Of a stretch of 64,000 nucleotides of DNA, positions 15,750 through 41,300 are shown piece after piece. The first letter of the stretch is position 1. The number at the start of each line of letters is the position of its first letter. The position numbers were made by a program, and so were the translations under genes. Under the pieces are notes generated by a model. It saw only the letters and a program-made list of their open reading frames with translations, had not been told where the DNA came from and ran no database searches. The DNA comes from Pycnopodia helianthoides (taxonomy: Eukaryota > Echinodermata > Asteroidea > Forcipulatida > Asteriidae), in contig CM063258.1 in assembly GCA_032158295.1 (NCBI GenBank), forward strand, positions 12,251,703 to 12,315,702, given 5' to 3'.

Positions 15750-18700
15750 GTCTTGAGTCCGTCACCCCGGTGCTTGATAACCTTAGCTTGTTAGTCTTTC
15801 ATAGCTGGGGACTGTATTAGCCGAGTCTTGAGTCCGTCACCCCGGTGCTTGATAACCCAGGCTTGTTAGTCTTTCAAAGCTGCGGGACTGTATTAGCCGA
15901 GTCTTGAGTCCGTCACCCCGGTGCTTGATAACCTTAGCTTGTTAGTCTTTCATAGCTGCGGGACTGTATTAGCCTAGTCTTGAGTCCGTCACCCCGGTGC
16001 TTGATAACCCAGGCTTGTTAGTCTTTCAAGCTGCGGGACTGTATTAGCCGAGTCTTGAGTCCGTCACCCCGGTGCTTGATAACCTTAGCTTGTTAGTCTT
16101 TCATAGCTGCGGGACTGTATTAGCCTAGTCTTGAGTCCGTCACCCCGGTGCTTGATAACCCAGGCTTGTTAGTCTTTCATAGCTGCGGGACTGTATTAGC
16201 CGAGTCTTGAGTCCGTCACCCCGGTGCTTGAGTAACCTTAGCTTGTTAGTCTTTCATAGCTGCGGACTGTTTAGCCGAGTCTTGAGTCCGCCACCCCGGT
16301 GCTTGATAACCTTAGCTTGTTAGTCTTTCAAGCTGCGGGACTGTATTAGCCGAGTCTTGAGTCCGCACCCGGTGCTTGATAACCTAGCTTGTTAGTCTTT
16401 CATAGCTGGGACTGTATTAGCCAGTCTTGAGTCCGCCACCCCGGTGCTTGATAACCTTAGCTTGTTAGTCTTTCAAAGCTGCGGGATGTATTAGCCGAGT
16501 CTTGAGTCCGCCACCCGGTGCTTGATAACCAGCTTGTTAGTCTTTCAAGCTGGGGACTGTATTAGCCGAGTCTTGAGTCCGTCACCCCGGTGCTTGATAA
16601 CTAGCTTGTTAGTCTTTCAAAGCTGCGGGACTGTATTAGCGAGTCTTGAGTCCGCCCCCGGTGCTTGATAACCAGCTTGTTAGTCTTTCAAGCAGGGGAC
16701 TGTTATTAGCCGAGTCTTGAGTCCGCACCCCGGTGCTTGATAACCCAGGCTTGTTAGTCTTTCATAGCTGGGGACTGTATTAGCCGAGTCTGAGTCCGCC
16801 ACCCGGTGCTTGATAACCAGCTTGTTAGTCTTTCAAGCTGTGGGACTGTATTAGCCGAGTCTTGAGTCCCCCCCGGTGCTTGATAACCTTAGCTTGTTAG
16901 TCTTTCATAGCTGCGGGACTGTATTAGCCGAGTCTTGAGTCCGCCACCGTTAGCCAGTCTGGTCGCACCGGTGTTGTACTTGTAGTCTTAGCGGATTTAG
17001 CAGTCTGATCCTGCTGTATGTTGTTATCTTTCAAGCTGGATGTTAGCAGTCTTGATCGCCGTGTTGACAGTTGTTAGTTTCAACTGACGTTGCGTTTGAG
17101 TCCGCCCGGTGTAACAGTTGTTGTCTTTCAGGGATGTTAGCAGCTGAGTCGCACGGTGACCTAGTTGTTAGTCTTAACGCGGACTTTACGTCTTGAGTCG
17201 CACCCTGCTGAACAGCTGTTTTATGGCTGTTTAGCCGAGTTGAGTCCGCACCGGCTGTACCGTTTTAGTCTTTATAGTGGGGACTGTTAGCCATCTGAGT
17301 CCGCACCGTGTGTAACTAGCTGTAGTCTTTCAAGTGGGAGTATAGCCAGTCTTGATCCGCACCGTGCTGATAACAGCTTGTTGTCTTCAAGCGGACTGTT
17401 AGCCGAGCTAGTCCGCACCGGTGCTTGAACCAGCTTGTTCTTCAGCTGGGATGTTTGAGTCTTGAGTCGCACCGGTGCTTGATAACCAGTGTTAGTCTTT
17501 CAGCGGGGACTGTATGCAGTTGGTCCGCACCGTGCTGATACAGTGTTAGTCTTTCAAGCTGGATGTATTAGCGAGTCTTGATCCGCACCGGTGCTTGTAA
17601 CGCTGTTAGTCTTTCAAGCTGGACTGTATAGCCGAGTCTGAGTCCGCACCGTGCTTGATAACAGCGTAGTCTTTCAAGCTGGACGTTACCGAGCTTGAGT
17701 CCGCACCGTGCTATAACCAGCTTATCTTCAACTGCGGACTGTATTAGCCGATCTTGAGTCCGCACCCGTGCTTGATAACCAGTTGTTAGTCTTTCAACTG
17801 GACTGTATTAGCCGGTCTTGAGTCGCACCCGTGCTGAACAGCTTGTTATTTCAAGCGGCGTAACCGGCTTGAGTCCTACCCGGCTTGATACTAGCTTGTT
17901 AGCTTTCAACCGCTGTTGCCACTACCCCGTCTTGATACCCGCTTGTAGTCTTCATAGCTGGGACTTATTAGCCAGTCTTGAGTCCGTCACCCCGGTGCTT
18001 GATAACCCAGGTTGTTATCTTCTAGCTGTGGACTGTATAGCCGAGCTTGAGTTCCGTCACCCCGGTGCTTGATAACCAGCTTGTTAGTCTTTCATAGCTG
18101 GGACTGTTTTAGCCGAGCCGCACCCGTGCTTGATAACCCAGCTTGTTAGTCTTTCAAGCTGGGGACTGTATTAGCCGAGTCTTGAGTCCGTCACCCCGTG
18201 CTTGATAACCTAGCTTGTTAGTCTTTCAAAGCTGCGGGACTGTATTAGCCAGCTTGATCCGCACCCCGGTGCTTGATAACCTTAGCTTGTTAGTTTCAAG
18301 CTGCGGGACTGTATTAGCAGTCTTGAGTCCGCACCCCGGTGCTTGATAACCAGCTTGTTAGTCTTTCAAGCGGGGACTGTATTAGCCGAGTCTTGAGTCC
18401 GCACCCCGGTGCTTGATAACCCAGCTTGTTAGTCTTTCATAGCTGGGGACTGTATTAGCCAGTCTTGAGTCGCCACCCCGTGCTGTAACCTAGCTTGTTG
18501 TCTTTCAAGCGCGGGACTGTTAGCCATCTTGAGTCCGCCACCGGTGCTTGATAACCTAGCTTGTTAGTCTTTCAAAGCGGGGACTGTATTAGCAGTCTTG
18601 ATCCGCACCCGGTGCTTGATAACTGCTTGTTATCTTTCAAGCTGGGGACTGTATTACAGTCTTGATCCGCCACCCGGTGCTTGATAACCAGGCTTGTTTC

Positions 18701-21700
18701 TTATAGCTGGGGACTGTATTAGCCGAGTCTTGATCCCACCGGTGCTTGATAACCAGCTTGTTAGTCTTTCAAGCGGGGACTGTATTAGCCGGTCTTGAGT
18801 CGCCCGGTGCTGATAACCTAGCTTGTTTCTTTCAAGCTGGGACTGTATTAGCCAGTCTTGAGTCCGCACCGTGCTTGATAACCAGCTTGTAGTCTTTCAG
18901 CTGGGCTGTATTAGCAGTCTTGAGTCCGCCCCCGTGCTTGTACCTAGCTTGTTAGTTTTCATAGCTGGGACTGTATTAGCGAGTCTTGAGTCCGCACCGG
19001 TGCTTGATAACCTAGCTTGTTGTCTTCATAGTGGGGACTGTTTAGCCAGTCTTGAGTCCGCACCGGTGCTTGATAACCTAGCTTTAGTCTTTCAAGCTGG
19101 GGACTGTTTAGCCAGTCTTGAGTCCGCACCCCGGTGCTTGATAACCTTAGTTTAGTCTTTCAAGCTGGGGCGTTAGCGAGTTTGGTCCGCACCCGGTGCT
19201 TGATAACCAGCTTGTTAGTCTTCAAGCTGGGATGTATAGCCGAGTCTTGAGTCCGCACCCGTGCTTGATAACAGCTTGTTGTCTTTCATAGCTGGGGACT
19301 GTATTAGCGAGTCTTGAGTCCGTCACCCCGGTGCTGATAACCTTAGCTTGTTAGTCTTTCATAGCTGCGGGACTGTATTAGCCGAGTCTTGAGTCCGCCA
19401 CCCCGGTGCTTGATAACCTTAGCTTGTTAGTCTTTCATAGCTGCGGGACTGTATTAGCCGAGTCTTGAGTCCGCCACCCCGGTGCTTGATAACCCAGCTT
19501 GTTAGTCTTTCATAGCTGTGGGACTGTATTAGCCGAGTCTTGAGTCCGTCACCCCGGTGCTTGATAACCTTAGCTTGTTAGTCTTTCATAGCTGCGGGAC
19601 TGTATTAGCCGAGTCTTGAGTCCGCACCCCGGTGCTTGATAACCTTAGCTTGTTAGTCTTTCATAGCTGCGGGACTGTTTAGCCTAGTCTTGAGTCCGCC
19701 ACCCGGTGCTTGATAACCTTAGCTTGTTAGTCTTTCAAGCTGGGCGGACTGTTTTCGCCAGTCTTGACCTCACCTGCTTGATTAACTTAGCTTGTTAGTC
19801 TTTCAAGCTGCGGGACTGTTTAGCCTAGTCTTGAGTCCGTCACCCGGTGTTTGTAACCTTAGCTTGTAGTCTTTCAAGCTGCGGGACTGTATTAGCCAGT
19901 CTTGAGTCGTCCACCCGGTGCTGATAACTTAGCTGTAGTTTTCAAGCTGCGGGACTGTATTAAGCCTAGTCTTGAGTCCGTCACCCGGTGCTTGATAACC
20001 AGGCTTTAGTCTTTCAACGCGGGACTGTATTAGCTGAGTCTTGAGTCCGCACCCGGGTCTTGAGTAACCTTAGCTTGTTAGTTTTCAAGCTGCGGGACTG
20101 TATTAGCCGAGTCTTGAGTCGTCACCCGGTGCTTGATAACCTTAGCTTGTTAGTTTTCAAGCTGCGGGACTGTTTTAGCCTAGTCTTGAGTCCGTCACCC
20201 CGGTGCTTGATAACCCAGCTTGTTAGTCTTTCAAGCTGCGGGACTGTTTAGCCTAGTCTTGAGTCCGCACCCGGTGCTGATAACCAGCTTGTTAGTCTTT
20301 CATAGCTGCGGGACTGTATTAGCCGAGTCTTGAGTCCGCCACCCGGTGCTTGATAACCTTAGCTTGTTAGTCTTTCAAGCTGCGGGACTGTTTAGCCAGT
20401 CTTGAGTCCGTCACCCGTTGCTTGATAACCTAGCTTGATTAGTCTTCATAGCTGGGGCTGTTTAGCCAGTCTTGAGTCCGCACCCCGTGTTGATAACCTA
20501 GCTTGTTAGTCTTCAAGCTGCGGGACTGTATTAGCCGAGTCTTGAGTCCGTCACCCCGAGTGCTTGATAACTTGCTTGTTAGTCTTTCATAGCTGCGGGA
20601 TGTTTAGCCAGTCTTGAGTCCGTCACCCGGTGCTTGATAACCTTAGCTTGTTAGTCTTTCATAGCTCGGGGACTTATTAGCCTAGTCTTGAGTCCGCACC
20701 CCGGTGCTTGATAACCTTAGCTTGTTAGTCTTTATAGCTGCGGGCTGTTTACAGTCTTGAGTCCGCACCCGGTGCTTGTAACCTTAGCTGTTAGTCTTTC
20801 ATAGCTTGGGACTTATTAGCCGAGTCTTGAGTCCGCCACCCGGTGCTTGATAACCAGGCTTGTTAGTCTTTCAAGCTGTGGACTGTATTAGCCGATCTTG
20901 AGTCCGTCACCCGGTGTTGATAACCTTAGCTTGTTAGTCTTTCATAGCTGCGGGACTGTATTAGCCGAGTCTTGAGTCCGTACCCGGTGCTGATAACCTT
21001 AGCTTGTTAGTCTTTCATAGCTGCGGGGACTGTTTTAGCCTAGTCTTGAGTCCGCCACCCGGTGCTTGATAACCTTAGCTTGTTAGTCTTTCAAAGCGCG
21101 GGACTGTTTTAGCCTAGTCTTGAGTCCGCACCCCGTGCTTGATAACCTAGCTTGTTAGTCTTTCATAGCTGCGGGACTGTTTTAGCCAGTCTTGAGTCCG
21201 CCACCCCGGTGCTTGATAACCTTAGCTTGTTAGTCTTTCAAGCTGCGGGATGTATTAGCCGAGTCTTGAGTCCGTCACCCCGTGCTAGATAACCTTAGCT
21301 TGTTAGTTTTTCATAGCTGCGGGACTGTATTAGCCGAGTCTTGAGTCCGTCACCCCGGTGCTTGATAACCTTAGCTTGTTAGTCTTTCATAGCTGTGGGA
21401 CTGTATTAGCCGAGTCTTGAGTCCGTCACCCCGGTGCTTGATAACCTTAGCTTGTTAGTCTTTCATAGCTGCGGGACTGTATTAGCCGAGTCTTGAGTCC
21501 GCCACCCCGGTGCTTGATAACCTTAGCTTGTTAGTCTTTCATAGCTGTGGGACTGTATTAGCCGAGTCTTGAGTCCGCCACCCCGGTGCTTGATAACCCA
21601 GGCTTGTTAGTCTTTCATAGCTGTGGGACTGTATTAGCCGAGTCTTGAGTCCGTCACCCCGGTGCTTGATAACCTTAGCTTGTTAGTCTTTCATAGCTGC

Positions 21701-22883
21701 GGGACTGTATTAGCCGAGTCTTGAGTCCGTCACCCCGGTGCTTGATAACCTTAGCTTGTTAGTCTTTCATAGCTGCGGGACTGTTTTAGCCTAGTCTTGA
21801 GTCCGCCACCCCGGTGCTTGATAACCTTAGCTTGTTAGTCTTTCAAAGCAGCGGGACTGTTTTAGCCTAGTCTTGAGTCCGCCACCCCGTTGCTTGATAA
21901 CCTTAGCTTGTTAGTCTTTCATAGCTGCGGGACTGTTTTAGCCTAGTCTTGAGTCCGCCACCCCGGTGCTTGATAACCTTAGCTTGTTAGTCTTTCAAAG
22001 CTGCGGGACTGTATTAGCCGAGTCTTGAGTCCGTCACCCCGGTGCTAGATAACCTTAGCTTGTTAGTTTTTCAAAGCTGCGGGACTGTATTAGCCTAGTC
22101 TTGAGTCCGTCACCCCGGTGCTTGATAACCCAGGCTTGTTAGTCTTTCAAAGCTGCGGGACTGTAATAGCCGAGTCTTGAGTCCGTCACCCCGGTGCTAG
22201 ATAACCTTAGCTTGTTAGTTTTTCATAGCTGCGGGACTGTATTAGCCGAGTCTTGAGTCCGTCACCCCGGTGCTTGATAACCTTAGCTTGTTAGTCTTTC
22301 AAAGCTGCGGGACTGTTTTAGCCTAGTCTTGAGTCCGTCACCCCGGTGCTTGATAACCCAGGCTTGTTAGTCTTTCATAGCTGCGGGACTGTTTTAGCCT
22401 AGTCTTGAGTCCGCCACCACGGTGCTTGATAACCCAGGCTTGTTAGTCTTTCATAGCTGCGGGACTGTATTAGCCGAGTCTTGAGTCCGCCACCCCAGTG
22501 CTTGATAACCTTAGCTTGTTAGTCTTTCATAGCTGCGGGACTGTTTTAGCCTAGTCTTGAGTCCGTCACCCCGGTGCTTGATAACCCAGGCTTGTTAGTC
22601 TTTCATAGCTACGGGACTGTATTAGCCTAGTCTTGAGTCCGCCACCCCGGTGCTTGATAACCTTAGCTTGTTAGTCTTTCATAGCTGCGGGACTGTATTA
22701 GCCGAGTCTTGAGTCCGCCACCCCGGTGCTTGATAACCTTAGCTTGTTAGTCTTTCATAGCTGTGGGACTGTATTAGCCGAGTCTTGAGTCCGCCACCCC
22801 GGTGCTTGATAACCCAGGCTTGTTAGTCTTTCATAGCTGTGGGACTGTATTAGCCGAGTCTTGAGTCCGTCACCCCGGTGCTT
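15750..22883. repeat. 76-bp satellite array, about 94 monomers (left part)
   Basis: The monomer reads cttgataaccttagcttgtt, agtctttcatagctgcggga, ctgtattagccgagtcttga, gtccgtcaccccggtg. Two main variants, 'aaccttagcttg' and 'aacccaggcttg', alternate at the left end, giving a dimeric higher-order pattern up to about 16250. Monomers at both edges are intact. From about 16250 to 20900 they carry many one-base deletions, worst at 16950-17900, where length drops well below 76. Short frames inside are artefacts. Confidence 0.96.
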
Positions 22884-23162
22884 CACTCACAGTTTTATTT
22901 AGTCAATCATAGTGAGAAATTCGTCAAAGTGGGCGAAAATGATTAGTAATGCGAGTGATTAGTCAATTGACGATTTCCTTTAAGAGAATGACAAATTATA
23001 GTTGGTGCAATACGAATTGTTTCAAGTGCTGGACTAATTAATATAAGTGAAATACTACTTTGAATGAAGGACTAATTTGAAGGACGGACTAATTTGTCAA
23101 TTGACAAAGAAGCATCGTCACGTAAACAAGACATGATGAAGTATTTTTTACATTACAATTCA

Positions 23163-23297
23163 ACTGACTAACTTTTTGCGACATGACTAATTAAGAGCAC
23201 GATCCCACCAATACTTTTCAGGGCGTGATTTTTTTACATACAAAATTCACTGACTAACTTTTGCGACATGACTAATTAAGAGTGCGATCCCGCCAAT
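23163..23297. repeat. Subterminal direct repeat in the CACT-ended element
   Basis: 'ctgactaactttttgcgaca' followed by 'tgactaattaagag.(g)cgatccc.ccaat' occurs at about 23164-23212 and again at about 23249-23297 (period about 85 bp). The same gactaatt core recurs inverted near the right end. Confidence 0.8.
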
Positions 23298-24454
23298 TTT
23301 GTTGGCGGCAATTTGACTTTTTACTCATTTTTTGACGACTTTTGATTGTGCCGGGTTTCCCAGAAGCCCTCTTGGGGGCGTGCGCAAACCAATGATCGGA
23401 TCGCATTGAATGTACAGCAGCACACAGCAGCTGTGCTGTGTCGTCGCGTACAGTGGAATCGGATCGGATGGGACGTGTGTCAACAACCATGACAACGACA
23501 TGACATGATGATCGAGGGTAGCTAGCTAGCTCCGAAGACAAAAGTTGACTGGTGAAGGTGAGCATAATAATCATTGGAATATTCATCAGAGAATATAGTC
23601 TGAAGCACTGTGATTAAAGAAATTTCATTAGGTAATACGATAGAAACAACGACGTGATGTAACGTGAAAAGTTTGTGTTGTTTTTGACCACACTGTGCAT
23701 GGACATGATGGATGGAGTGAGATGTAGTGTAGGGACGGTACATGTATGTAGTGACATGACACACACACGCCGTTTCGTTTTACATGTTTTTATACTCACT
23801 CATTGCAGGCAGCATACATGCGAAGTTATCAAGTAAATTTGACATTTTTTTGCAAAATTTGAGACATTTTAGAAAACAATTATATAGTGGGTGTTGCGCA
23901 TGTTGATTTTGTTCGTGAAGCTAGCTGTGTAGCTGTGTGTGTACGGGCACGAGCAAACAAACGATAATTTTCTACAGTTGCAATGTTTGTATCAGGGACT
24001 TGCATGTATGTAACTGCCTCGCAAGGAAGGTGCACACATCAAGGTACCCTTGCATGTATTCATAACAAATGTTTATGTTGATCAATTACAGATATCAAGG
24101 ACAGAAGTCATTTTTTTGCAAGCTACACAAATAACCTGACCATGGCTACTACAAATAAGTAAGTTTGACAATAATGGTGCACACATTGATTATGTAGGAT
24201 TGGGTTACTTTTAATGATATTTTGTAATTGGTTGAAAGTTTGCTTAATCCTCAAGACTTCTGGATGATAATTTATTACTCTCTTAGGTTTTGATAAAAAA
24301 AGATTCCTCATGTGAGTGATGAACACACAAAATTTGGGCTCACAAACTTAGTCATTTCCGGCATTTCTCAGTTACGACACCCCTTAAAATGTTCTATTGT
24401 ACCTCGCCCCTTTTTACTCACTCCAAGTGGCATATATGTCAAAATTTTACTTTG

Positions 24455-25340
24455 CAGATGCAGTGGCAACAGCTGCTGTCCTTGCCCTACCAAGGATTCT
24501 GAAGGAGAAGAGCGACATGTTCACCTACCAGGTACATGAACAAAGCATTGCTATTAAAACTTTGATTTTTTTGTAAAATAACATCCCTCTACTTGTACAT
24601 TATCTTTCAATCTTCACCCAATGTACTGTCCCATTTTTAGTAACTCCCACAGGGTTTGCATTGCATTCCAGTCATTTGTGTCCGCTGCTGATGTTACTGA
24701 ATATCTAGCCTCCAGCATTAAGCCTAACTGTTTCATACTTCAAGCAAAACCAATTTTGAATCAAATTTGGGTGATCTTGATGTAAAACACATGTTATGCA
24801 GCGTTAATGACAGCCTATAACACAATTCAGAGCCCATTATGTAAACAACTCATCATGCTAATGGAATTGAGAAAACGTAGTAGTGTAACTAACCAAGTCC
24901 CTCCTCCCTACATTTTTTTGATGTTATTTGCAAGTACCATGTTTCAAACAACTGCAATATTAGAGTCGATCCCATATTTTCCTAGAAGGAGTTATCCTGA
25001 ACAAGTTCTATTGTAATGTTGTTTCAAGCAGGATGACGCTGAAAAAGCCCAGAAGGCTGTACACGCGGTGATGGACTGTAAAAGTCCATTAACATCTACT
25101 TCGTTCAAGCTCTTAGTGGAAGGTGTAAAGGTTTGCACATGCACAGATGTAGTTACAGCTTTTGCCTGTTTTGTCTGTTCATTTTATAATTTTCACCTAC
25201 AATATGAACCAAATCAGCAGAAGACACTAGAATTTACACAAGTGGCACTACTTGATATTAAAGATAAGTGCCCGGTGGCCAAGCCAGTGCTCACCATGAT
25301 TTCCAGGCTAAACAAAGTTATGACACAAAAGGAAGATTGA
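24455..25340 (+). CDS. Small spliced gene inside the CACT-ended element, function unknown, 5' incomplete
   Basis: Exon A begins after ttttactttgcag, about 24459, and ends at about 24531 with donor gtacat. In the joining frame it reads DAVATAAVLALPRILKEKSD then MFTYQ. Exon B starts after caagcag, about 25032, and runs to a stop at 25338-25340: DDAEKAQKAVHAVMDCKSPL, then a Cys/Val-rich stretch, then FYNFHLQYEPNQQKTLEFTQ, ending LNKVMTQKED. The join is in phase. The upstream exon is not found: exon A needs one base from it, and the ATG at 24142 is out of phase. I do not recognise the family. It sits between the transposon ends, so it is element cargo or a captured host fragment. Confidence 0.5.
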
Positions 25341-25522
25341 ACTGCTTGTGGACTGAAACAAAAGGATTCAACAATTATGATTAAGAGACCATCCTTTCCA
25401 AAGTTACCTTATGTGCCTCGGCTATTTCATGTAACACTGTTTTGAGTGTGAAAATGTCTTCTGCTGACTTGGTAGATATTGAACATGATTGTTGAAGTAT
25501 TAAATTGTTTTAAAGGTATGGT

Positions 25523-25866
25523 TTAATTTGAGCAAAGAAAATTCGACTGAACTAGGACTTGAACCAAGACCCCTAGATTGCCGTATCCAGAGCTCTTGGG
25601 TTCAAGCCCGCTTCAGTCAAATTTTCTTTGCTCAAATTGAATTTTATTTATTATGTATAAAAACAAATGGAATGTTTCTTTTTTAAATGAAATTAAAAAT
25701 ACAAAAGAAAAAAGTGTAGTGTTAAATATGAAGAAACGGCTGTTCCATGCTATTTAAAATGCCTTTTAAACTTGAGTTGGTGCAGTGATAGTTATGAAAA
25801 AACAGTTGTTCCTTATAATGCCTTTAAACTTGAACTGGTGCAATGTTATGAATTGAAGTTGACTTT
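25523..25866. repeat. Tandem segment copy A with tRNA-like foldback (deleted form)
   Basis: Copy A of a duplication with a period of about 344 bp (copy B starts at 25868). It begins with the foldback arm aatttgagcaaagaaaa and closes at about 25637. The middle has lost about 30 bases that copy B keeps, which removes the tRNA D-arm-like part. The shared 3' portion includes 'aagtgtagtgttaaatatga' and 'ttccttataatgcctttaaa'. Confidence 0.8.
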
Positions 25867-25867
25867 T

Positions 25868-26219
25868 AATTTGAGCAAAGAAAATTTGACTGAACTAGGA
25901 CTTGAACCAAGACCCCTAGATTGCCGTACCAGCACCCTTCCACCTAAGCTATCCAGAGGTCTCGGGTTCAAGTCCCGGTTCAGTCAAATTTTCTTTGCTC
26001 AAATTGAATTTTATTTATTATGTATAAAACAAATTTAATATTTCTTTTTTATACAAATTAAAATTGAAAATACAAAAGAAAAAAGTGTAGTGTTAAATAT
26101 GAAGAAACGACTGTTCCATATTATTTAAAATGCCTTTTAAACTTGAGTGAAAGTTATGAAAAAAGTTGTTCCTTATAATGCCTTTAAACTTTAACTGGTG
26201 CAATGTTATGAATTAAAGT
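25868..26219. repeat. Tandem segment copy B with complete foldback
   Basis: 28-bp perfect arms at 25868-25895 and 25978-26005 enclose a tRNA-like body. The stem then continues with near-matching 'ggacttgaacc' sequences on both sides, so both strands carry a B-box-like motif. The rest matches copy A. Confidence 0.85.
25892..25954 (-). other. tRNA-like sequence (pol III A and B box motifs) in a foldback
   Basis: The minus strand reads GGATAGCTTAGGTGGAAGGG, a partial anticodon arm with loop ACGGCAA, then GGTTCAAGTCC. 'TAGCTTAGGTGG' resembles an A box and 'GGTTCAAGTCC' a B box. The 5' and 3' acceptor sides do not form a good stem, and the T-arm is duplicated in inverted form on the other side, so this is a tRNA-derived repeat rather than a working tRNA gene. 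Confidence 0.55.
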
Positions 26220-26592
26220 GAAAATTTTAACTGTAAACTTGTTTTCAGACTGATTTATTATGAGTGTGGCTTTTACAGTGGCAGTGTGACCAATCAAAAT
26301 AGTCACACGACTATTAAAGTTAGTCAGAATGACAAATTAGTTGTCTCCCATTACTAATTAATTTTCGTGCAATACTAATTAGTTTTCGTGCAATACTAAT
26401 TAATTTTCGTGCATTACCAATTAATTTTTGTACGTTACTAATTAATTTATTAATTAGGCGAATAAGACATTTTTTCATGACTAATTATAATTAGTCAAAA
26501 CTACCTACGCATGACTATCTTTTAATTAGTAAAATAAGACAGTGTGCATGACTAATTTTTATTAGTCAATTGACTAGATAACATTTTCAGTG

Positions 26593-28578
26593 TTGATAAC
26601 CTTAGCTTGTTAGTCTTTCATAGCTGCGGGACTGTATTAGCCGAGTCTTGAGTCCGTCACCCCGGTGCTTGATAACCTTAGCTTGTTAGTCTTTCATAGC
26701 TGCGGGACTGTTTTAGCCTAGTCTTGAGTCCGCCACCCCGGTGCTTGATAACCTTAGCTTGTTAGTCTTTCAAAGCAGCGGGACTGTTTTAGCCTAGTCT
26801 TGAGTCCGCCACCCCGTTGCTTGATAACCTTAGCTTGTTAGTCTTTCATAGCTGCGGGACTGTTTTAGCCTAGTCTTGAGTCCGCCACCCCGGTGCTTGA
26901 TAACCTTAGCTTGTTAGTCTTTCAAAGCTGCGGGACTGTATTAGCCGAGTCTTGAGTCCGTCACCCCGGTGCTAGATAACCTTAGCTTGTTAGTTTTTCA
27001 TAGCTGCGGGACTGTATTAGCCTAGTCTTGAGTCCGTCACCCTGGTGCTTGATAACCCAGGCTTGTTAGTCTTTCAAAGCTGCGGGACTGTATTAGCCGA
27101 GTCTTGAGTCCGTCACCCCGGTGCTAGATAACCTTAGCTTGTTAGTTTTTCATAGCTGCGGGACTGTATTAGCCGAGTCTTGAGTCCGTCACCCCGGTGC
27201 TTGATAACCTTAGCTTGTTAGTCTTTCAAAGCTGCGGGACTGTTTTAGCCTAGTCTTGAGTCCGTCACCCCGGTGCTTGATAACCCAGGCTTGTTAGTCT
27301 TTCATAGCTGCGGGACTGTTTTAGCCTAGTCTTGAGTCCGCCACCACGGTGCTTGATAACCCAGGCTTGTTAGTCTTTCATAGCTGCGGGACTGTATTAG
27401 CCGAGTCTTGAGTCCGCCACCCCAGTGCTTGATAACCTTAGCTTGTTAGTCTTTCATAGCTGCGGGACTGTTTTAGCCTAGTCTTGAGTCCGTCACCCCG
27501 GTGCTTGATAACCCAGGCTTGTTAGTCTTTCATAGCTGCGGGACTGTTTTAGCCTAGTCTTGAGTCCGCCACCCCGGTGCTTGGTAACCTTAGCTTGTTA
27601 GTCTTTCATAGCTGCGGGACTGTTTTAGCCGAGTCTTGAGTCCGTCACCCCGGTGCTTGATAACCTTAGCTTGTTAGTCTTTCATAGCTGTGGGACTGTA
27701 TTAGCCGAGTCTTGAGTCCGTCACCCCGGGTGCTTGATAACCTTAGCTTGTTAGTCTTTCAAAGCTGCGGGACTGTATTAGCCGAGTCTTGAGTCCGTCA
27801 CCCCGGTGCTTGATAACCCAGGCTTGTTAGTCTTTCATAGCTGTGGGACTGTATTAGCCGAGTCTTGAGTCCGTCACCCCGGTGCTTGATAACCTTAGCT
27901 TGATAGTCTTTCATAGCTGCGGGACTGTATTAGCCTAGTCTTGAGTCCGCCACCCCGGTGCTTGATAACCTTAGCTTGTTAGTCTTTCAAAGCAGCGGGA
28001 CTGTATTAGCCGAGTCTTGAGTCCGCCACCCCGGTGCTTGATAACCCAGGCTTGTTAGTCTTTCATAGCTGTGGGACTGTATTAGCCGAGTCTTGAGTCC
28101 GCCACCCCGGTGCTTGATAACCCAGGCTTGTTAGTCTTTCATAGCTGTGGGACTGTATTAGCCGAGTCTTGAGTCCGCCACCCCGGTGCTTGATAACCTT
28201 AGCTTGTTAGTCTTTCATAGCTGCGGGACTGTATAAGCCGAGTCTTGAGTCCGTCACCCCGGTGCTTGATAACCCAGGCTTGTTAGTCTTTCAAAGTAGC
28301 GGGACTGTATTAGCCGAGTCTTGAGTCCGCCATCCCGGTGCTTGATAACCCAGGCTTGTTAGTCTTTCAAAGCTGCGGGACTGTATTAGCCGAGTCTTGA
28401 GTCCGTCACCCCGGTGCTTGATAACCTTAGCTTGTTAGTCTTTCAAAGCAGCGGGACTGTATTAGCCGAGTCTTGAGTCCGCCATCCCGGTGCTTGATAA
28501 CCCAGGCTTGTTAGTCTTTCATAGCTGTGGGACTGTATTAGCCGAGTCTTGAGTCCGTCCTCCCGGTGCTTGATAACC
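26593..28578. repeat. 76-bp satellite array, about 26 monomers (right part)
   Basis: Resumes at 'ttgataacc' directly after the transposon. From 26593 on, the order of monomer variants repeats 21666 onward at a constant offset of 4927 bp: 'caaagcagcggg' at 21844/26771, 'ccaccacgg' at 22414/27341, 'caccccagtg' at 22491/27418. Removing the 3709-bp insertion leaves 1218 bp, about 16 monomers, so a 16-monomer block was duplicated. The array ends at about 28578. Confidence 0.95.
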
Positions 28579-30514: not shown

Positions 30515-33500
30515 TAGTAGACCAGCCAAACTTAAAAAAGTGCTCTAGAAAAAAATTCCACGGCATAGTTTGTTAATGGCTGGCATCCATGCTAGATGTA
30601 TGGATCATGGGATCGGGCAGACGATTAGGGTGGATGCCAAGCTTGATTTTGAATTTTAAGGTCATTTCGAGGTAAAAAAGGTCAAATAAGGTCAAATTTC
30701 AATTTTTTGAATTTTGCACCAAATTCTCCCCAAGTGGTAGATCTATCCATAAAATTTTTGTCATCATATTATTATACCAAGCTGGTGAAATTAAGAGTTT
30801 ATTTTTTATCTTATGCACAAATGTATAGTAAAATGAAAACTAAAAGTGCGTTTTTTATCAAAAAGTGCATATATTGAATATACAAAAGTTGAACGCTCGT
30901 CCTATCCCAATAGAACATTTAATTGTTTCAAACAATTTTTTTCTGGAAGGTCAATATACCCAGGCAGTTTAAAAAAAAAATTAATTAAATCACACCTTCA
31001 TTTATGGTGTAATTAAATAAAAAAGGTATGCCTAATTACCGTAAATTTGAACGCATAGTGGGTTTATAGTGTAATGACATGGTGCTCATAACTGTAAGCC
31101 TATGATTCATATCAAAGTTGTTTGTACTCCCAATCTTTCCATGAAAACATTTTTCATACTCCAACACAGTCAACAAACCTACAATGAGTTAAATTAATTC
31201 ATTAGTTAACATTAACAAATTAGTTAAATACCTCATAGTTAAACCATGGAGGAAGGGAATACTTGCCATGTTTCTAAGCTAGCTCCTCAGAGTAAACTAA
31301 TAGACCAGGCACAGGCCACTTCTCCCATAAGATTGACATCTTAAGTACTTCTGATGATTATTCTGTCCAGACCAGTGACCTTTGGTGTCTGATTAGCCAT
31401 CAGAACATCAAGGGCCACATAGCCACACTTAACATCTATTGTTTTGATCGGAGTATAACCATATACTGGAAATGCTCTTTTAATGTGTACATCTGAAGCC
31501 ATCAACCCTCAGTTTCTTTGATGAAAGAACTTTCTCATCATCTGTTAGAGTGAGTAGACTTTCTTTTTTATCTCTATTATCTTTAACTAATATAGTAATT
31601 ATGGAGACATGTGTATAGACTGATGGTATAAACCATCTAGTCCTTGCTCATGGCACAATAGGAACATGAGCTATTGCATCACTGATTTCACCGTAAGAAT
31701 GATTTCTCGACCACACCAACTATGCCCGGTGGGGACCTGTTTATCTAGCAGATATGAAACTCCTCGAGAGGACAGCACCCGAGGTTTATGCAGAATTTAT
31801 TGATGGAAATTTTGTTGTGAAGAGAACAAAACGGCGCTTCAACCAGGTTCCCGCTGATCAGGCAACCGAGTGGATGAACAGGACATGCAAAATGCAGAAT
31901 GGCATAATTGGAATTACAAGAAATGATCAAGCAAGGGACAAATTCTGTGTCACATGGTCCAAGCGATCATGCATCACACAAGAGGTAAGATCTCTCTTCA
32001 ATTTGGAAGATGATGAGGAAGAAACCACTTTCACCCGCTCTGACAGTCTTCCATCCCGCACAAAGCGAGATGTTGATGACGTTAAGAAGCTCACCACACA
32101 ACTAACAAGATTTGATGTTTTCCGAGTAAACCCAACCTTGGCTGAAGAAGATGACAGTGACTCTGATGATGTTAGAGTTATACCACTGGTATCATTGGCC
32201 TCCAAAGACATAGCTCCAGTTGATGTGGTTAGTGATCTTCTAACTGCTGAAGATCGTGGAAAGCAGTATGTGATGACCAACGTGAAACAACGTCTGCAAG
32301 AAGAAACTGTTGGATTTCATGACGCCCTGAAGAAACATCGCTCAAAAACATTTGCTGACCTATACAAAGCAAACGTGTCCACAAAACAAAATGAACAGAA
32401 GACCATCAAAGCTGACAGAAAATTACTGCAACGATTACTCAATGCTGCCACTGGAGGTCGATCATTGGAAATGGTGAATATTCTCCAGCATGAGCTTTCT
32501 CCAGTCCCACTGTCTCTCGCCAAGGCTGGAGGAGAGATGAATTCAACAACAAAGGCAGATCTGATCAACATCTTAATGGCTGGCCTTACCACTCCCACAG
32601 ATATACCGAATGCCAACATGAAGACATGTGTGCTAATAGATGGTCATGCACTAATCCAAGCTCTTGGAAAGCCTCCCCGGGTGTCAAACATTTGGTGACT
32701 ATGCTGGTGTTTTCATGAATAGTATGACAAAACACTTTGGAGATAATACAACAAGAGTTGACGTGGTATTTGATCGCTACATTGGAAAGGGCTCCATCAA
32801 GGCAGTGACTCGATCAAAGAGAATGGGGGGGGGGGGGGAAGCCAATACGAAAGCTCATAGATGGACCCCAGGTCCCACTCCCACAGGTATGGGGCCAATT
32901 CATTGCCTTGGATGAGAACAAGGCTGATCTCGCCAAGTTCCTTGTCAGAATTAGCCATTATAGAGAAGGGCAAGGATTTACTGCAAAGATATGAGATGGT
33001 AACAGGCGGTGGATTCCTTGATGACACAGAAGCCAGGCCCACGAGGAGAGACGATGTAAAACTTCGACGAAACCATGAGGAGGCTGACACCAGGTTGATA
33101 CTCCATGCATCTGAGGCAGTAGTTAATGGGTATCAAAGAGTGGTGGTCATCTGCAGGGACACAGATGTGATGCTACTTCTGGTGCACTTTATAACTTCAA
33201 AAGCAACAGAAGTTTGGATCTGGTCTCTGGAAAGGCAAAGAAGCGCAAATGCTACCTAATACATGCAGTATCTGAGAGACTCCCACAACCTGTGAGGGAT
33301 AACCTACTCAGCTTTCATGCCCTTACAGGATGTGATACAACCTCTTCCTTCCATGGCCATCGAAAGAAAATGTGCTGGAAAATCTTTGAGAAAACTTATA
33401 TGGTGCACCTGAGCACCCAACCATCAACCATGCCAGACTCCAAATGGTAAGGCGCAGAAGGGTCTGGAGATGTTACCGCCAACAAAAGATGCACTGGAGC

Positions 33501-34787
33501 TTCATACAGTACGCGCCAACTACCAGGCAAAGATTTGGCTTCAGACAGACCAGGAACACATAGATGTCCCACCTCCAACTGATACATTAGCTTGGAAGAA
33601 AGAGTCAGGTCACCTGGAAGCTGTCTGGACAAGACTACCCCCTATCCCAGATGCGTGTCTTGAACTAGTTTCCTGTGGCTGTAAATCAAAGTGCAGGACA
33701 TCCCAATGCACTTGCTTCAAAAAGGACCTAAGGTGCACTTATGCCTGCGGATGTGACGCAAATGACTGCAACAACCCAGCTGGCCAGTAGACTAAAAATT
33801 GACTTTTTAGAAAACTCAGGTGGGCACATAAATATTCTGATGTACAAAGAAAACAAATATCCACAACGAAATAATTGTCAAAGTTGTCGTCAAATTATAA
33901 ACAACAACTACAAATTATAAAACCACTACACGTTCAAATTAACTTCTTAAAGAACATACCTTCTTCTTTCATTACATCATCAAATTATATGAAAGTGTGG
34001 TATGGATTTTTGTTGATATCAAAACTGCCTGGGTACCTTTACCTTGAAAAAAGTTTGTTTGAAACAAACATTATTATGCACCATTGAGATCTGGAGTGAA
34101 AAAAACTTTGTTGTATACACTTTTTGAGAAAATCACACCTTTAGGTTTCCTTTTGCTATACTTTTGTGTACGAAATGAAAGTGTATCGATTCATTTCATA
34201 GATGTCATTAATCAACATGAAGTTAAAAGTACATTTTATGGATAGATCTATGAATTCCGGTTAAAAATTATTCCGACTTCAAAAATACTCATTTTTGACC
34301 TTTGTTGACCTTTTTGACCTCAAATTTACCTAACATAAAGGTGCTATATGATTTTTTTTTTCAAAAACTGTCTGGGTATGTTAACCTTTGAAAAAAAGTT
34401 GTTTGCAACAAATATATACAACATTGAGATGGGGAGAGCAAATAATTTGGGTATACTCAAGATGTACACTTTTCAAGAAAATCATACTTTTACGTTTTAT
34501 TTTGCTATACATTTGTGCACAAGTTGAAAGTTTATTCAATAATTACTTATTAGCCTTGGGATATAAACATGTAGTTAAAACTATATTTTGTGGATAGATC
34601 TATTAAATGTGATTAAAACTATATTTTTTGACCTTTTGACCTCAAAATGACCTTAAAATTCAAAATCAAGCTTGGCATCCACCCTAATCGTCTTCCTGAG
34701 CCCATGATCCGTACATCTAGCATGGATGCCAGCCATTAACAAACTATGCAGTCCAAAGTGTAATTTCACACTTTGGCTGGCCTACTA
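30515..34787 (+). mobile_element. 4.3-kb DNA transposon with long inverted ends and a nuclease-like gene
   Basis: The left end (tagtagaccagccaaa..., then gtttgttaatggctggcatc, catgctagatgta, agacgattagggtggatgcc, aagcttgattttgaatttta) is matched inverted at the right end (34660-34787). Similarity continues inward through 'atagatcta' and 'acaaatgtatag' to about 31000 on the left. The right subterminal block of about 350 bp is present twice (about 33990-34330 and 34345-34690). Outermost bases are tagtag/ctacta, so a TA target duplication is possible but cannot be separated from the inverted repeat. It carries a broken gene at 31704-33790. Confidence 0.8.
31704..33790 (+). pseudogene. Transposon gene: FEN/XPG/PIN-like nuclease with C-terminal CXC cysteines, frameshifted
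   Basis: The longest piece, 31754-32698, continues upstream in frame (HTNYARWGPVYLAD) to a stop near 31702, so the real N-terminus is missing. Later pieces are in other frames: about 32690-32824; about 32839-32950 after a 14-G run at 32825-32838; about 32955-33215; about 33220-33450; then 33470-33790. A gap of several tens of residues lies before the last piece. Acidic motifs appear in 5'-nuclease order: LIDGHALI (Asp codon 32639), VVFDRY (32772), HEEADTR (33077-33088), CRDTDVMLLL (33158-33166), LTGCDTTSSF (33334). FEN1-family enzymes place metal-binding Asp/Glu in this series. The end reads SCGCKSKCRTSQCTCFKKDL and CTYACGCDANDC, like a tesmin/TSO1 CXC motif. Homologous multicopy genes occur in marine invertebrates (recollection, not checked). 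Nuclease function is inference. Confidence 0.65.
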
Positions 34788-35315: not shown

Positions 35316-35878
35316 ATGGTTGCAAATTGCTCTGCAGCCATATGTCTCAGCAGAGAAAAGAGAAAGGGGCCCGGAGTCCTTCGTAAGCTGACATACCATA
35401 GGTAAGTATAAAGTAGGCCTACATGTTTATTGAATTTTAAAATTTTTAGCAATTACTATAGCTAATTACCATCACCATTGATGTGTATGAACTCCATTTC
35501 GGTTATTTATCAGGTTTACTCTTTTCTTTCCTCCATCGTATGCTGTAATGATGATATTCACTGGGACTTTGGGTATAATACTACTCTAGGCTATAGAGTG
35601 TTTATTGCACGGTAATGAATGGGTTTATACGTTGCGATAGTATTATTGGGTAGTGGTTGTGATTTTACTTTTTTTAGTCGTTGTATAATTAAACTCTTCT
35701 CAAGTGATATGTAGGCCTACATTGTTTTGTTTAATGCTTACAATTGTTATTTCACTCCAGATTCCCCCATGAAGACTCAAAACTGATGCGCGAGTGGGTT
35801 CATCGAATAAAAAGGATGCTCCCGAATGGTAGAAATGGAGTCCCACTGCACAAGACCGGCTTTGCAGCGTAAAATGAT
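35316..35878 (+). pseudogene. P-type transposase N-terminus: spliced THAP domain, frameshifted
   Basis: Exon 1, 35316-35401, reads MVANCSAAICLSREKRKGPG then VLRKLTYH and ends at donor gtaagt. Exon 2 starts at 35761 after ttcactccag and continues in phase: RFPHEDSKLMREWVHRIKR. Together they fit a THAP domain: C-x4-C near the start, HRFP, W in the helix. The last element 'WSP.....RLCS' is present (WSPTAQDRLCSV at about 35837-35872) but in a different frame, so a 1-base frameshift lies at about 35828-35836. An in-frame stop follows at 35871-35873 in the direct frame. No DDE/RNase-H-like catalytic domain follows, so only the DNA-binding module survives. Confidence 0.8.
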
Positions 35879-36369
35879 GGAGCAGGATTTGAAGGCAAAT
35901 CATTTAGATATTACCAGATTTAATGGTATCAACTCAAATTGGGGAGGGGGAACCTTCTTTGTCATTATCTTCAAAACTCTATCGGCGACATCCGCTGGGT
36001 TTTTCCTGTTCGCATCATTGTGTGTCCGACAATTCTGTCTGACGAAGTTTCAGGAGGTGCATAGCCTCGATTAATCTTATTACGGCAGGCTTTATGCTAG
36101 TTATAATGGCCCTTGGCCCGCTGATGTATCATTTCTGTTGATAGTTTGTTACTACTGTTATTGTATTTTTCAGTGTATATTCAATTTTTAAATATTCTGA
36201 AATAATTGTTAACATCTGTACTTTTTACTATTGTAATGCGCATCTGTACATTTTTTTTTAATGAAACTTGCCCATATGAATAAATTATTAGATTAGATTA
36301 GATTAGATTTAAATTATTTATTCAGCCAACGTTAAAAAATTAAAAACCAAAAACACCGGAAATCGTAGT

Positions 36370-36545
36370 GCAACTCGAGCTCTCTAGATTTTACATTATA
36401 ACTTTAATGGTCTGTTTTATGGGTTACCCGACTCTCTTCTCGTTAAGCTTCAACGGTTTCAAAACTCTGCTAGTGCAAGACTTGTTACTTATACTCGCTC
36501 ACAAGCATGAACCCACTTCTAGAGCAACGTTTAGCGCAGGCCTAA
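36370..36545 (+). pseudogene. LINE fragment (CR1/L2-like reverse transcriptase C-terminus)
   Basis: From 36412 the frame reads LFYGLPDSLLVKLQRFQNSA, then SARLVTYTRSQA and a stop (36507-36509). This is the 'LLYGLP...L..LQR.QNSAARLV' block that follows the reverse transcriptase domain in CR1/L2-type LINEs. The preceding part (SRFYIITLM) is the 'SRLDYYN.L' block in another frame. Insertion into the P-like element, or capture by it, is inferred. Confidence 0.7.
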
Positions 36546-36955
36546 TTACCCTCCAAACTGATATAATAATACGTAATTACTTTGTTTTCTTTAATTGTAT
36601 AATTCAAAATATGCACGGTCTACGTGCATACTGCAGTGTTTTTATGCTACTACCGGTGAAAAATAAATGACTAGCCCGTGTTATACTTACACCTTTGTGC
36701 TTATGTTGAGTTTATGAATCTTGCTTTTTGTCATTTATCCAAGAAATGGGTCTTTAAATTGTGCCACAAACCTGTCAAATAATATAGCCCACCGTGTGTT
36801 TAAGGACTATTCTCCATGTTCATCTTCAGTGCGTTACCACCAGCACGTGACTTTTAAGCGCGTCCATGAAGAACCAGGAATTGTTGTGTACGGCCTATGG
36901 CGCGTATGTACGCGCGGCCGATCTAGGTATTATATTCTATATCTATGGTAGCCAT

Positions 36956-37589
36956 ACGAATGATCCAAACAGTCTTGAGTTCACCTCTCTTTGTGAACAC
37001 ATATGAGTGAATTAGGCCTACATAATGCAGTAAATTATCCCGCTACAGAAAATTAATATTATTGCTACACAAAAATCATCATTCGTGTAGTGCATGGTAG
37101 AATTGTTTCATTGCCAATAGTTTATTTTCAGGGCATGTCGGGTGGTAGAATGCCGTATTAATTCAAATGCAAAGATAATCTTTTTCAAATTACATGTTTG
37201 ACATCGACAATGTACAAGATTCAAACGTCCAATAACAATGACCAACCGATAAACCTAATTCCGACTGCAAGCAATGCATATCATTTAGCTTGAATAATTT
37301 CAGAATCACTTGCTAAATGCGTTGATAATGCGATAGAAGCCATATTAATTATTATGGTGGTCAATCAAAACAAGAGTTCATGCGATGTAACACAGCTAGC
37401 ATGCACCAATGTCAAGCTCGTCTCGACGACCCCGTGACCTTTCACATCTTGCTTGTCTTGCAAGCTTGTCATTTAGTCACTAATATGAATAATACATGAC
37501 TTGATACTTCATTACCATAATTTGGCCACGCCCTCTAAAACAAGATATCCAAGACGTTACTACAGCCAGTCGTCAAACCGCGACAAATT
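36956..37589. other. No recognisable gene
   Basis: AT-rich, no domain recognised, no repeat assigned. Confidence 0.4.
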
Positions 37590-37790
37590 CAAGAAGAAAA
37601 GCGCGCCCTCTGTCGGGTTATCACGAGTATGAGATAGTGACGTCTTGGACCAAGACTACCGCTGGGGCCGAGCGAAGGTTTACAAGCGGTCAACCTCGTA
37701 CTGCTCGACACACACTGGGGACGAGGTTGCTGGGAACGTGGTTCCGGTGTATTGTGCGTACGCTTCACGTCGTCCGTCATTTGACGGTAT
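37590..37790. repeat. Dispersed repeat with GTCTTGGACCAAGAC palindrome
   Basis: 'gggttatcac.agtatgagat' and 'agtgacgtcttggaccaaga' match 28966-29014, and the reverse complement of 29806-29880 is related. 'gggacgaggttgc' at about 37719 also matches the inverted 'gcaacctcgtccc' at 29561. It ends about 300 bp upstream of the QSOX start codon. A (ac)n run follows at 37799-37816. Confidence 0.7.
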
Positions 37791-38063
37791 CAACAACACG
37801 ACACACACACACACACCATATCAATCCGGTGCTTTGAGACTTACTGCTTCCTCCATGCTTACCACCGTATCGAAACAATGTGTGACGTTTGGAAAGTGCC
37901 CATATGGTTTTTAAAACCACCATACAAAATGTATCATTGTTAATAGTATTACCACCAAGACAACACATGATTTCAACTAAACGTGAAGGAACAGGTCATG
38001 AGGTAGACCTAGACCTGTTTCAATTCAGTATGGAAGTGCCGTTGGCATTATTGAGATTGAAAT

Positions 38064-38304
38064 ATGTTTTTTTTGTTTATATGGACAGCTTACTTATTTT
38101 TCAACTGTGTTACTGCTGCTAATGTACCTGCTCTTAATTCCTTGTATAATATTTCTGACCAAGTAGTGGTGCTAGAAAACAAGACTTTGAAAAGTGCAGT
38201 ATATAATTCGGAGCAAGCTTGGTTTGTTCAATTTTATTCTAGTTGGTGTGGACACTGTGTGCACTTTGCACCAACGTGGAAGGCTTTTGCTGTCAATATC
38301 TCTG
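38064..38304 (+). CDS. QSOX: QSOX exon 1: signal peptide and WCGHC active site
   Basis: The ATG at 38064 opens the frame with a hydrophobic leader (MFFLFIWTAYLFF). The ATGs at 38030 and earlier are in another frame that ends at a stop just downstream, which supports this start. The exon runs through FVQFYSSWCGHCVHFAPTWK and ends in phase 1 at a strong donor (gtaagt, 38305). Confidence 0.93.
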
Positions 38305-41300
38305 GTAAGTTTGATTGATGAATTTTGTCTTGTTTTTTGTACTATACTCTTATTGGTTTCAATACACGACCTAGCTGTGATACCATATCCAAAAGTCCTA
38401 GTGTAAGCACTAATTACTAAAAGACTTGTTAGGAGGATTAATGGTTAACATGGTTAAGATTAGTGCCACTGCCAGTGGTTATTTTGCTGGCACTGACCAA
38501 CTTTTAAATACTGTGTAAGCCGGCAGATAGTATGGCGCTCTCTAAAGTTTGATTGATGAGTTCATGAAAAATTAGTAGCCACTAACATTATATTATTATA
38601 TTATACTGTGTTAACGACAATGTTTTAATTAACAGTGATTTTTTAATACTCTTAGATTAGTAGTACTATGTAGGCTCAGTGAGATATGCTCCCACCTGCT
38701 CCCATTGAACCATGGCCATTTTTCTTATTATCTTATCCCCAGTATATTTACCTGTGTTGTCGGGCTCCGCATAAGACTAAAAAAAGTCTTTTAATGCTCA
38801 GCCTTTATGTCAAGATATTGTCACTTAGCAGTAAAAGGGCTTGGAGTTAAAGCTACGAGATACAGAAAAAGGTTTCTATCGTAAGTGCTTACTGGTACAG
38901 GGTTCTGCCTAGGATTTCTTGAGTGGTGGAAAAATGTTTCCCTGGAAACCATTGCGAGATGGATCAGTTACACGGTAGATCATATGAATACACTCGAATC
39001 AAAGAAGTACTCAAAATTCATGTTTTGGATACCGCTTTTACTGGTAAATGCCCAATTTTACATTTTGTTGAAATCCTTCGAAAGGAATTTGCAAGTGGAA
39101 TTTAAAAATTTTGAAAATGTGTGGTGGTCGGAAACAGAGAAAATTCTGGCAGTGTTAATTGGGGAATCCTGAGTGCCGGGCGGGTTTTCCGGCACCGACC
39201 ACTGTGGGCAGAACCCTGCTGGTACTACATGCCATGTGAACTTATTCATGCATAGAGAAAGGACAGAGACTCTCTGTCCTTTCTCTATGATTCATGTATC
39301 TCCTTGACTCCAGGAGATACATAAATAAGTTCACCTGTTGCCATGGCAAAAATGCATCAAACTTGGTCTGAAGCTGTTATAGTGTTTGCTTCTACAGTTG
39401 TACTGCTGAACTGTGGAGTAGATTCCAGTGGTAAACAACTCTGTGCTTGAAGCTAAACTTCCTGTCTAGTTGAGCCTATGGTTTCTGAATTTTTAAAACA
39501 AGGGTAGAAATGCTTGCTCATTCAGGGCTCAAAATTTACACTGAACCGCAGGTGTTTGGGAAGAATAATACCTCACCTCATCTTTAATTTAACAAGTAAT
39601 GTTCAAATGTTGACTTTGAGTCTGAGAAATATCTTTCATTTCTGTTTAGTATGAAAAGTAATAGGCCTACCCATAAGACGAATGAGATAAATCTTACTCA
39701 TCATGTTTTTTCAAATTAAAACAGTTTAATTGTGACACTGTGTTTGTATGTAGACAGTTTTTCTGGTCATGTAAAGGTTGTTCTGGTCTAGTAAAAATTT
39801 TGAGCTACAACAAGCCCTGCGGTCTTCTGTATTTTCCCCCTAAATTCAAGCCTTGTCATTAATGCGCCGTATTTTTGACCGCGTGAGGGCGCTCTCAAAA
39901 ATAATTGTATCCCTTCCGGGGGTATAACTTAAGCGATTACCGTCTGCTCAGGGAGCTGTGTCCAGTTTTAACATTGGCGTTCTGTCACTTCTGTGCGCGA
40001 GAGAGTTTAGTCAGTGCTTCTAGAATCTAAGGTGGATTAATAACGGCTCCTTAATTTAACCCTCTTGCTGTCTGACCATTCAATACCATTCAAGTGGTTT
40101 TGAATGATAGATAAACTATGCTAGCCTGAAATATGATACCATGAGGGAATGCATGTACACAGTACACAGTTAGTTCTGTGCACAATTGTGCCTCTGTACA
40201 CAACCTTGGCAGTCGAATGGTTTCAAATGGTTGGTCAACTCACTGGAAAATGTTGCCAAGAGTCACTGACAGTAGGAGGGTTAAAGAAATAAAGAGCCCT
40301 GCATCCAATCTTAAAAAACATCTGAACTGGCAGTTTAGCGTGGCTCATCTTTTCCTCTTTATACTTAAGTTATAGAAACAACACTGTTCTCAGCAAACAA
40401 AAACTGCTTCAAATACTTCCTCAAGACAGTTAAGGACTGAAACACATTACTACCAGACGTCATATCCATCACGGAAAATAAGACCTTTAAAGGAGCCGTT
40501 ATTACCTTAGATTCTAGAAGCACTGACTAAACTCTCTTGCGCACAGAAGTGACAGAACGCAGATGCTAAACTGTACACAGGTAGCTGAGCAGACGATAAG
40601 TTATACCCCCGGAAGTGATAAAAATGTTTTTGAGAGCGCCCTCACGCGGTCAAAAATACGGCGCATTTCAAGTAAGAACTCATGAATGAAAAAACATTGC
40701 TAAGGTGCCATTAGGTCTGGCTTCTAAAATGAGGATTCAGATGGTTTAGTCTGAAGTAATTAGGTCTATTGTGGCATGACACTAGATTTCAGCCCAATGT
40801 TGTGGCCGAGCTGTTAAGAACACCATACTCAAGCTCGAGGGTTTCTGTTCAGCAGAGTGTGGGTTCGAGTCCCAGTCGTGACACGTGTGTCCCTGAGCAA
40901 GACACTTAACTATAATTGCTTCTCTCCACCCAGGGGTAAAATGGGTACCTGTGAGGGCAGTTCTTGTGATTGATTTAGCTTAGTACAATAGTAGCGCATA
41001 TTTGTTGCACAGGCTGTATACTCCCCAGGGAGCTGAGATGGTTTAAGGAATGAAACCAATGGCCCAGTGACCAGAGGTAATAGGCCTAAGTGTCAAGCGC
41101 TTTGGGACGCCCTTTCGGGTGTGAAAAGCGCTTTATAAAAAACAAATATTATTATTAGTATTAATTGAGCGAAGCTCTTGGGATGCAATCATTGGCAATT
41201 GTCTATGGAACATGGTATGCAGTTGAAGTTGCATGAACCATTTCTACATCTCAATTGCTAGGTGAGAAAGGCTTGAGGTACGGGTCCCTCCTTTGTGCTG

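Follow-up and report, generated by a model that had tools for sequence, protein, structure and literature searches.

The window analyzed here comprises 64,000 nucleotides of the Pycnopodia helianthoides genome (contig C16:12251703-12315702), and the genome searched comprised 479 Mb in 742 contigs. The central feature is an insert of 3,709 bp (22884 to 26592, forward strand) that starts with CACT, finishes with AGTG, and was assigned to a non-autonomous transposon on the basis of its exact borders in a satellite and the presence of the same ends in further copies. The satellite consists of 76-bp units and flanks the insert at ~15750 to 22883 and at 26593 to 28578. At the left border GGTGCTT is followed by CACT, and at the right border AGTG is followed by TTGATAACC, giving a target duplication of TT (22882 to 22883 and 26593 to 26594). 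The uninterrupted satellite reads GGTGCTTGATAACC, which occurs 78 times in the window, and the insert splits this sequence with TT on either side. When the flanks were joined with a single TT, 105 long matches were obtained in the window, 48 of them ungapped and 3 at 100%, compared to 103 long matches and none ungapped when both TT were retained. Removal of one TT thus restores the satellite, and TT was therefore deduced to be the target duplication. This comparison of empty and filled sites had been proposed in an earlier note on this DNA, and the exact satellite borders read there were supported both by the comparison and by other copies having both ends.

The two ends (22884 to 22907, forward strand, and 26569 to 26592, reverse strand) were assigned to terminal inverted repeats matching at 19 of 24 positions, the same score as had been given earlier. 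The score alone is not decisive, since the window contains 3,542 CACT/AGTG pairs spaced 1 to 6 kb apart, and a further one of these (35753 to 39175) also reaches 19 of 24 by chance. A second element at that pair was rejected, as the pair is without a target duplication. The subterminal zones, previously described as dense in gactaatt motifs, indeed held six GACTAAT/ATTAGTC motifs in the left 417 bp (22884 to 23300, forward strand) and four in the right 292 bp (26301 to 26592, reverse strand), the latter zone also containing 21-bp tandem units at 26352 to 26448. None was present in the middle 3,000 bp of the element, and two were found in the 22,883 bp preceding it.

Other copies were sought throughout the genome, as the earlier note had suggested; the counts obtained for the element ends are lower bounds. 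The left 217 bp were found at at least six places including the window, four of them at 100% identity (the window among them), one at 99%, and one at 95%. The right 353 bp gave at least nine matches, of which six were full length at 93 to 100% (window included) and three were partial, all on C11. The right 24-mer, with up to 3 mismatches allowed, was located at at least six places (control, 0). These are the same six right ends, and thus no element with this right end on both sides was seen in the genome at this stringency. Besides the window copy, complete copies were present on C19 (4,276 bp), C4 (4,276 bp), and C13 (4,821 bp), while the C568 and C313 copies were cut by contig ends. All four copies readable at both ends have a 2-bp target duplication, and it differs by copy (TT in the window, CT on C19, TA on C4, and TG on C13); by our own arithmetic, assuming equal bases, the chance of such duplications in four of four copies is ~1.5e-5. 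On C15 and C12 only the right end occurs, and duplications are therefore unreadable there. The search thus yielded three more complete copies with 2-bp duplications of their own as well as the two contig-cut copies, and the borders are settled by independent copies with the same ends.

Divergence among five of the six copies was 0.1 to 1%. The C19 and C4 copies are distinguished by 5 differences over 4,276 positions and the window copy from C19 by 17 over 3,707, while C568 and C313 are 0.6 to 0.95% from the window, C19, and C4 copies and from one another. The C13 copy shows 97.5 to 99.4% identity over three matching stretches, its middle having been replaced and a palindromic insert of ~650 bp gained; divergence figures of 12 to 19% for this copy are alignment artefacts arising from these two changes. 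The nested insert (L009, element positions ~631 to 1282) appears by eye to be nearly one long palindrome, and the matches on its two sides overlap by 11 bp, which suggests a target duplication. The window copy carries the junction of a ~566-bp deletion at 23835 to 23839, the missing sequence being present in the C19, C4, C568, and C313 copies. The family is small and young, with low divergence between copies. A 120-bp sequence on C11 (L023:9522-9641) was observed to have similar ends, CACTGAAAAC, with CA on either side, and is possibly a miniature relative.

No transposase was recognised in the element: open frames of the window copy reach 113 aa at most, and two frames of the element scanned against Pfam gave no match above the cut-off. 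The coding content was instead assigned to three exons on the forward strand. The first (24458 to 24531) is preceded by AG and followed by GT and shows no differences from its counterpart on C15. The second (25032 to 25130) corresponds to a C15 exon with a 1-bp deletion, and the third (25221 to 25340) includes the stop codon and has an ambiguous acceptor, so that its start is 25218, 25221, or 25224. The exon alignment set C15 against five copies, two of which (C313 and C13) were covered in part, with C568 left out. The small two-exon gene of the earlier note is therefore to be read as the three 3'-terminal exons of a longer gene, while its description as lacking a recognised transposase stands. 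An intact captured gene starting from the ATG at 24142 was rejected because, by hand reading, its splicing would lead into a different frame, with a stop at the next exon. The profile search that had been proposed for the captured-exon protein agreed with the earlier reading, as Pfam gave no family for the 104 aa of the joined exons or for a 270-aa version with a faulty N terminus, and NCBIfam gave none for the 104 aa. No protein homologues were found for either query at E values up to 1, and a PDB search returned two matches only (E 1.1 and 1.4).

The source of the exons was deduced from C15. The element and C15 share a block that begins shortly ahead of the first captured exon and extends as far as the right end (24437 to 26592, forward strand; start approximate), with 97.7% identity over 2,161 bp. 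Additional exons precede the first shared exon on C15 and splice to it in phase: with three exons joined, one of the three frames is open throughout. The element's right end sits just behind the gene. When the genome was searched with a 227-aa query assembled from C15, 21 matches were obtained. Its upstream exons (query 1 to 133) were confined to C15, where one 35% paralogue was also found (11027202-11027417), whereas the terminal exons were present only on C15 and in the six element copies (C16, the window; C13; C4; C19; C568; C313). The C13 copy is without the first captured exon and C313, at its contig end, without the last; the second shared exon of C15, with its 1-bp deletion, is absent from the query matches and visible in the copy alignment. 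Since the upstream exons are single copy but for the 35% paralogue, it was concluded that the element amplifies the gene's 3' end. The earlier suggestion of a non-autonomous element with a captured gene thus gains further copies and a source gene on C15, with the correction that only the gene's 3' end is carried. The C15 gene itself presumably resembles the fish 'SAM domain-containing protein 3-like' proteins.

The right part of the element (25522 to 26592, forward strand) also occurs on C12 and is probably the element's own. No captured exons were found on C12 either with the 227-aa query or by sequence comparison, and the exons and the right end are therefore separable. Sequence comparison further showed two tandem units of ~340 to 370 bp within this part (25522 to 26219), each with one palindrome. 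These units appeared tRNA-like by eye at 25522 to 26008; ARAGORN reported no tRNA in the window, and Rfam matches to the units (MIR8643, 38.4 bits; mir-769, 33.2 bits) were both far below the gathering scores. Elsewhere in the window, three long frames at 31703 to 33790 look by eye like another mobile-element gene, with Pfam matches below the cut-off only (DUF3443, 0.017; NYN, 0.042; TCR, 0.018), and frames at 56072 to 57904 resemble a non-LTR reverse transcriptase by eye.

We consider it moderately probable that the element arose by capture of a gene end by a non-autonomous CACTA-like cut-and-paste transposon and then spread. The starting state would have been an element right end directly behind the gene on C15. 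The stretch that starts immediately before the third-last exon and runs through to the right terminus would then have been combined with a left end of different origin, presumably by gap repair or template switch, to give a new element. The exons would have passed from gene to element, and the new element, carrying the last three exons of the gene, would have spread recently to a few sites. For this spread, a CACTA-type transposase supplied in trans would bind the CACT...AGTG ends and the subterminal ATTAGTC repeats, excise the element, and insert it at a new site with a 2-bp duplication. More tentatively, C15 may be the preserved birthplace of the family, where a transposon that had inserted directly behind the gene would have taken up the 3' exons along with its own right end, the left end coming from a different source. 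Comparison of the left 300 bp with 27 kb of the C15 region, and of the 4,276-bp copy with 18 kb, revealed no left end next to the C15 gene; outside the shared block and its subterminal zone, the comparisons gave only weak, short pieces. Across the initial 20 kb of the C15 region, no individual CACT site scored above 17 of 24 against a loose consensus. An original insertion is therefore not seen whole at C15.

The main alternative is that the short copies are internal-deletion derivatives of a larger autonomous element, in which case the C15 gene would be a gene of that element, the C15 locus a degenerate copy, and the front would have been deleted from the short copies. Internal deletions are known from dSpm elements. 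We regard this origin as rather unlikely here. The shared block does reach the right terminus, but the left end was not found at C15. The frame-shifting 1-bp deletion in the shared exon means that C15 could represent a longer element in degenerate form, and the 35% paralogue of an upstream exon lies in the same C15 region; apart from that paralogue, however, the upstream exons are single copy. A RING plus DUF1280 transposase-type gene precedes the C15 gene and has the same orientation, with stops seen by eye in its zinc-finger and RING part. DUF1280, reported from animals, corresponds to putative Chapaev transposases (PMC3985635), and the gene could accordingly be taken as the transposase of the larger element. 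Against this, the 2-bp duplications of the element differ from the 3 to 4 bp that are general in Chapaev, and two further DUF1280 loci (L047 and L048), read over ~8 to 9 kb downstream, had neither the exons of the C15 gene nor the element ends. The latter result makes it probable that the DUF1280 gene next to the C15 gene forms part of a separate cluster.

DUF1280 gave 38 matches in the genome, 19 of which fall in the 8.36 to 11.47 Mb interval of C15; loci other than L047, L048, and that of the C15 gene were read to at most ~1.5 kb on each side. In the C15 interval (L027 to L048), a RING exon was observed near several of the matches, and the group resembles a gene cluster of RAG1-N-terminus-like/Chapaev type, although we only assume the RAG1 link. 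Two further matches lie ~10 kb apart on C160. N-RAG-TP is treated in PMC8355894.

Membership of the element in Chapaev by way of the C15 DUF1280 gene was rejected, given the absence of the gene and ends from L047 and L048 and the unfitting duplication length. That the element is instead a Chapaev branch mobilized by a DUF1280 transposase in trans, rather than CACTA proper, is improbable. Chapaev termini are given as CAC...GTG in PMC4079192, which these ends fit too, and the DUF1280 family is not only present in the genome but, with 38 matches, outnumbers Transposase_21, with 7. The same source gives Chapaev target duplications as generally 3 to 4 bp, however, compared to 2 bp in all four copies here, and the two DUF1280 loci read over up to 9 kb were without these ends. 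Six of the seven Transposase_21 matches were over the cut-off, one of them inside an 824-codon open frame on C43. No matching element ends were found in 16 kb at that locus (best E 0.016) or within ~1.5 kb on each side of all seven loci (best E 0.29), and no autonomous partner combining these ends with a transposase was found. Repeated subterminal motifs are a CACTA trait, and the six and four motifs in the end zones conform to it. The short target duplication agrees with that of the animal CACTA relatives. The ends have CACT but read CACTC and CACTG, the fifth base not being A. The CACTA label draws on the CACT ends, the 2-bp duplication, and the subterminal repeats only. Judged from the sequence, CACTA-like appears the better guess than Chapaev, because animal CACTA relatives have 2-bp duplications, and the element is not filed as a CACTA member. 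Lastly, chance borders in the satellite with no transposon at all can practically be dismissed: a coincidental end match of equal score does occur in the window, but copies share both ends at unrelated sites with target duplications.

The nearest known kind is the Pack-CACTA elements of plants. Pack-TYPE elements are introduced in PMC8903248 as found in plants, and the captured coding DNA described here likewise has an identifiable source gene in the C15 exons, the direction of copying presumably being from gene to element. Pack-CACTA elements are described in the same source as non-autonomous, with CACTA-like ends and gene fragments inside, and as spread by transposition (transduplication). 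They differ in duplication length, which that source puts at 5 nt for CACTA in rice and maize, compared to 2 bp here; in the present family, moreover, the terminal exons of one gene adjoin a right end that is likewise present at the source locus, and the host is an animal. The TRC elements, animal relatives of CACTA, share terminal inverted repeats and 2-bp duplications with this family, the latter described for SmTRC1 in 7 of 14 copies (PMC1636069) and for Spongebob of Hydra (PMC4298943). As described in these two sources, they start with CCC and SmTRC1 encodes Transposase_21, in contrast to the CACT start and the absence of a visible transposase here.

The element is thus ordinary in kind, while its origin is unusually legible. 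With a young family and a traceable source beside one element end, the route of capture could be read from the sequence. If C15 is indeed the birthplace, the capture would have been one-sided and by adjacency, rather than an acquisition of internal filler. The capture reading would show the spread of exons by CACTA-like ends outside plants.
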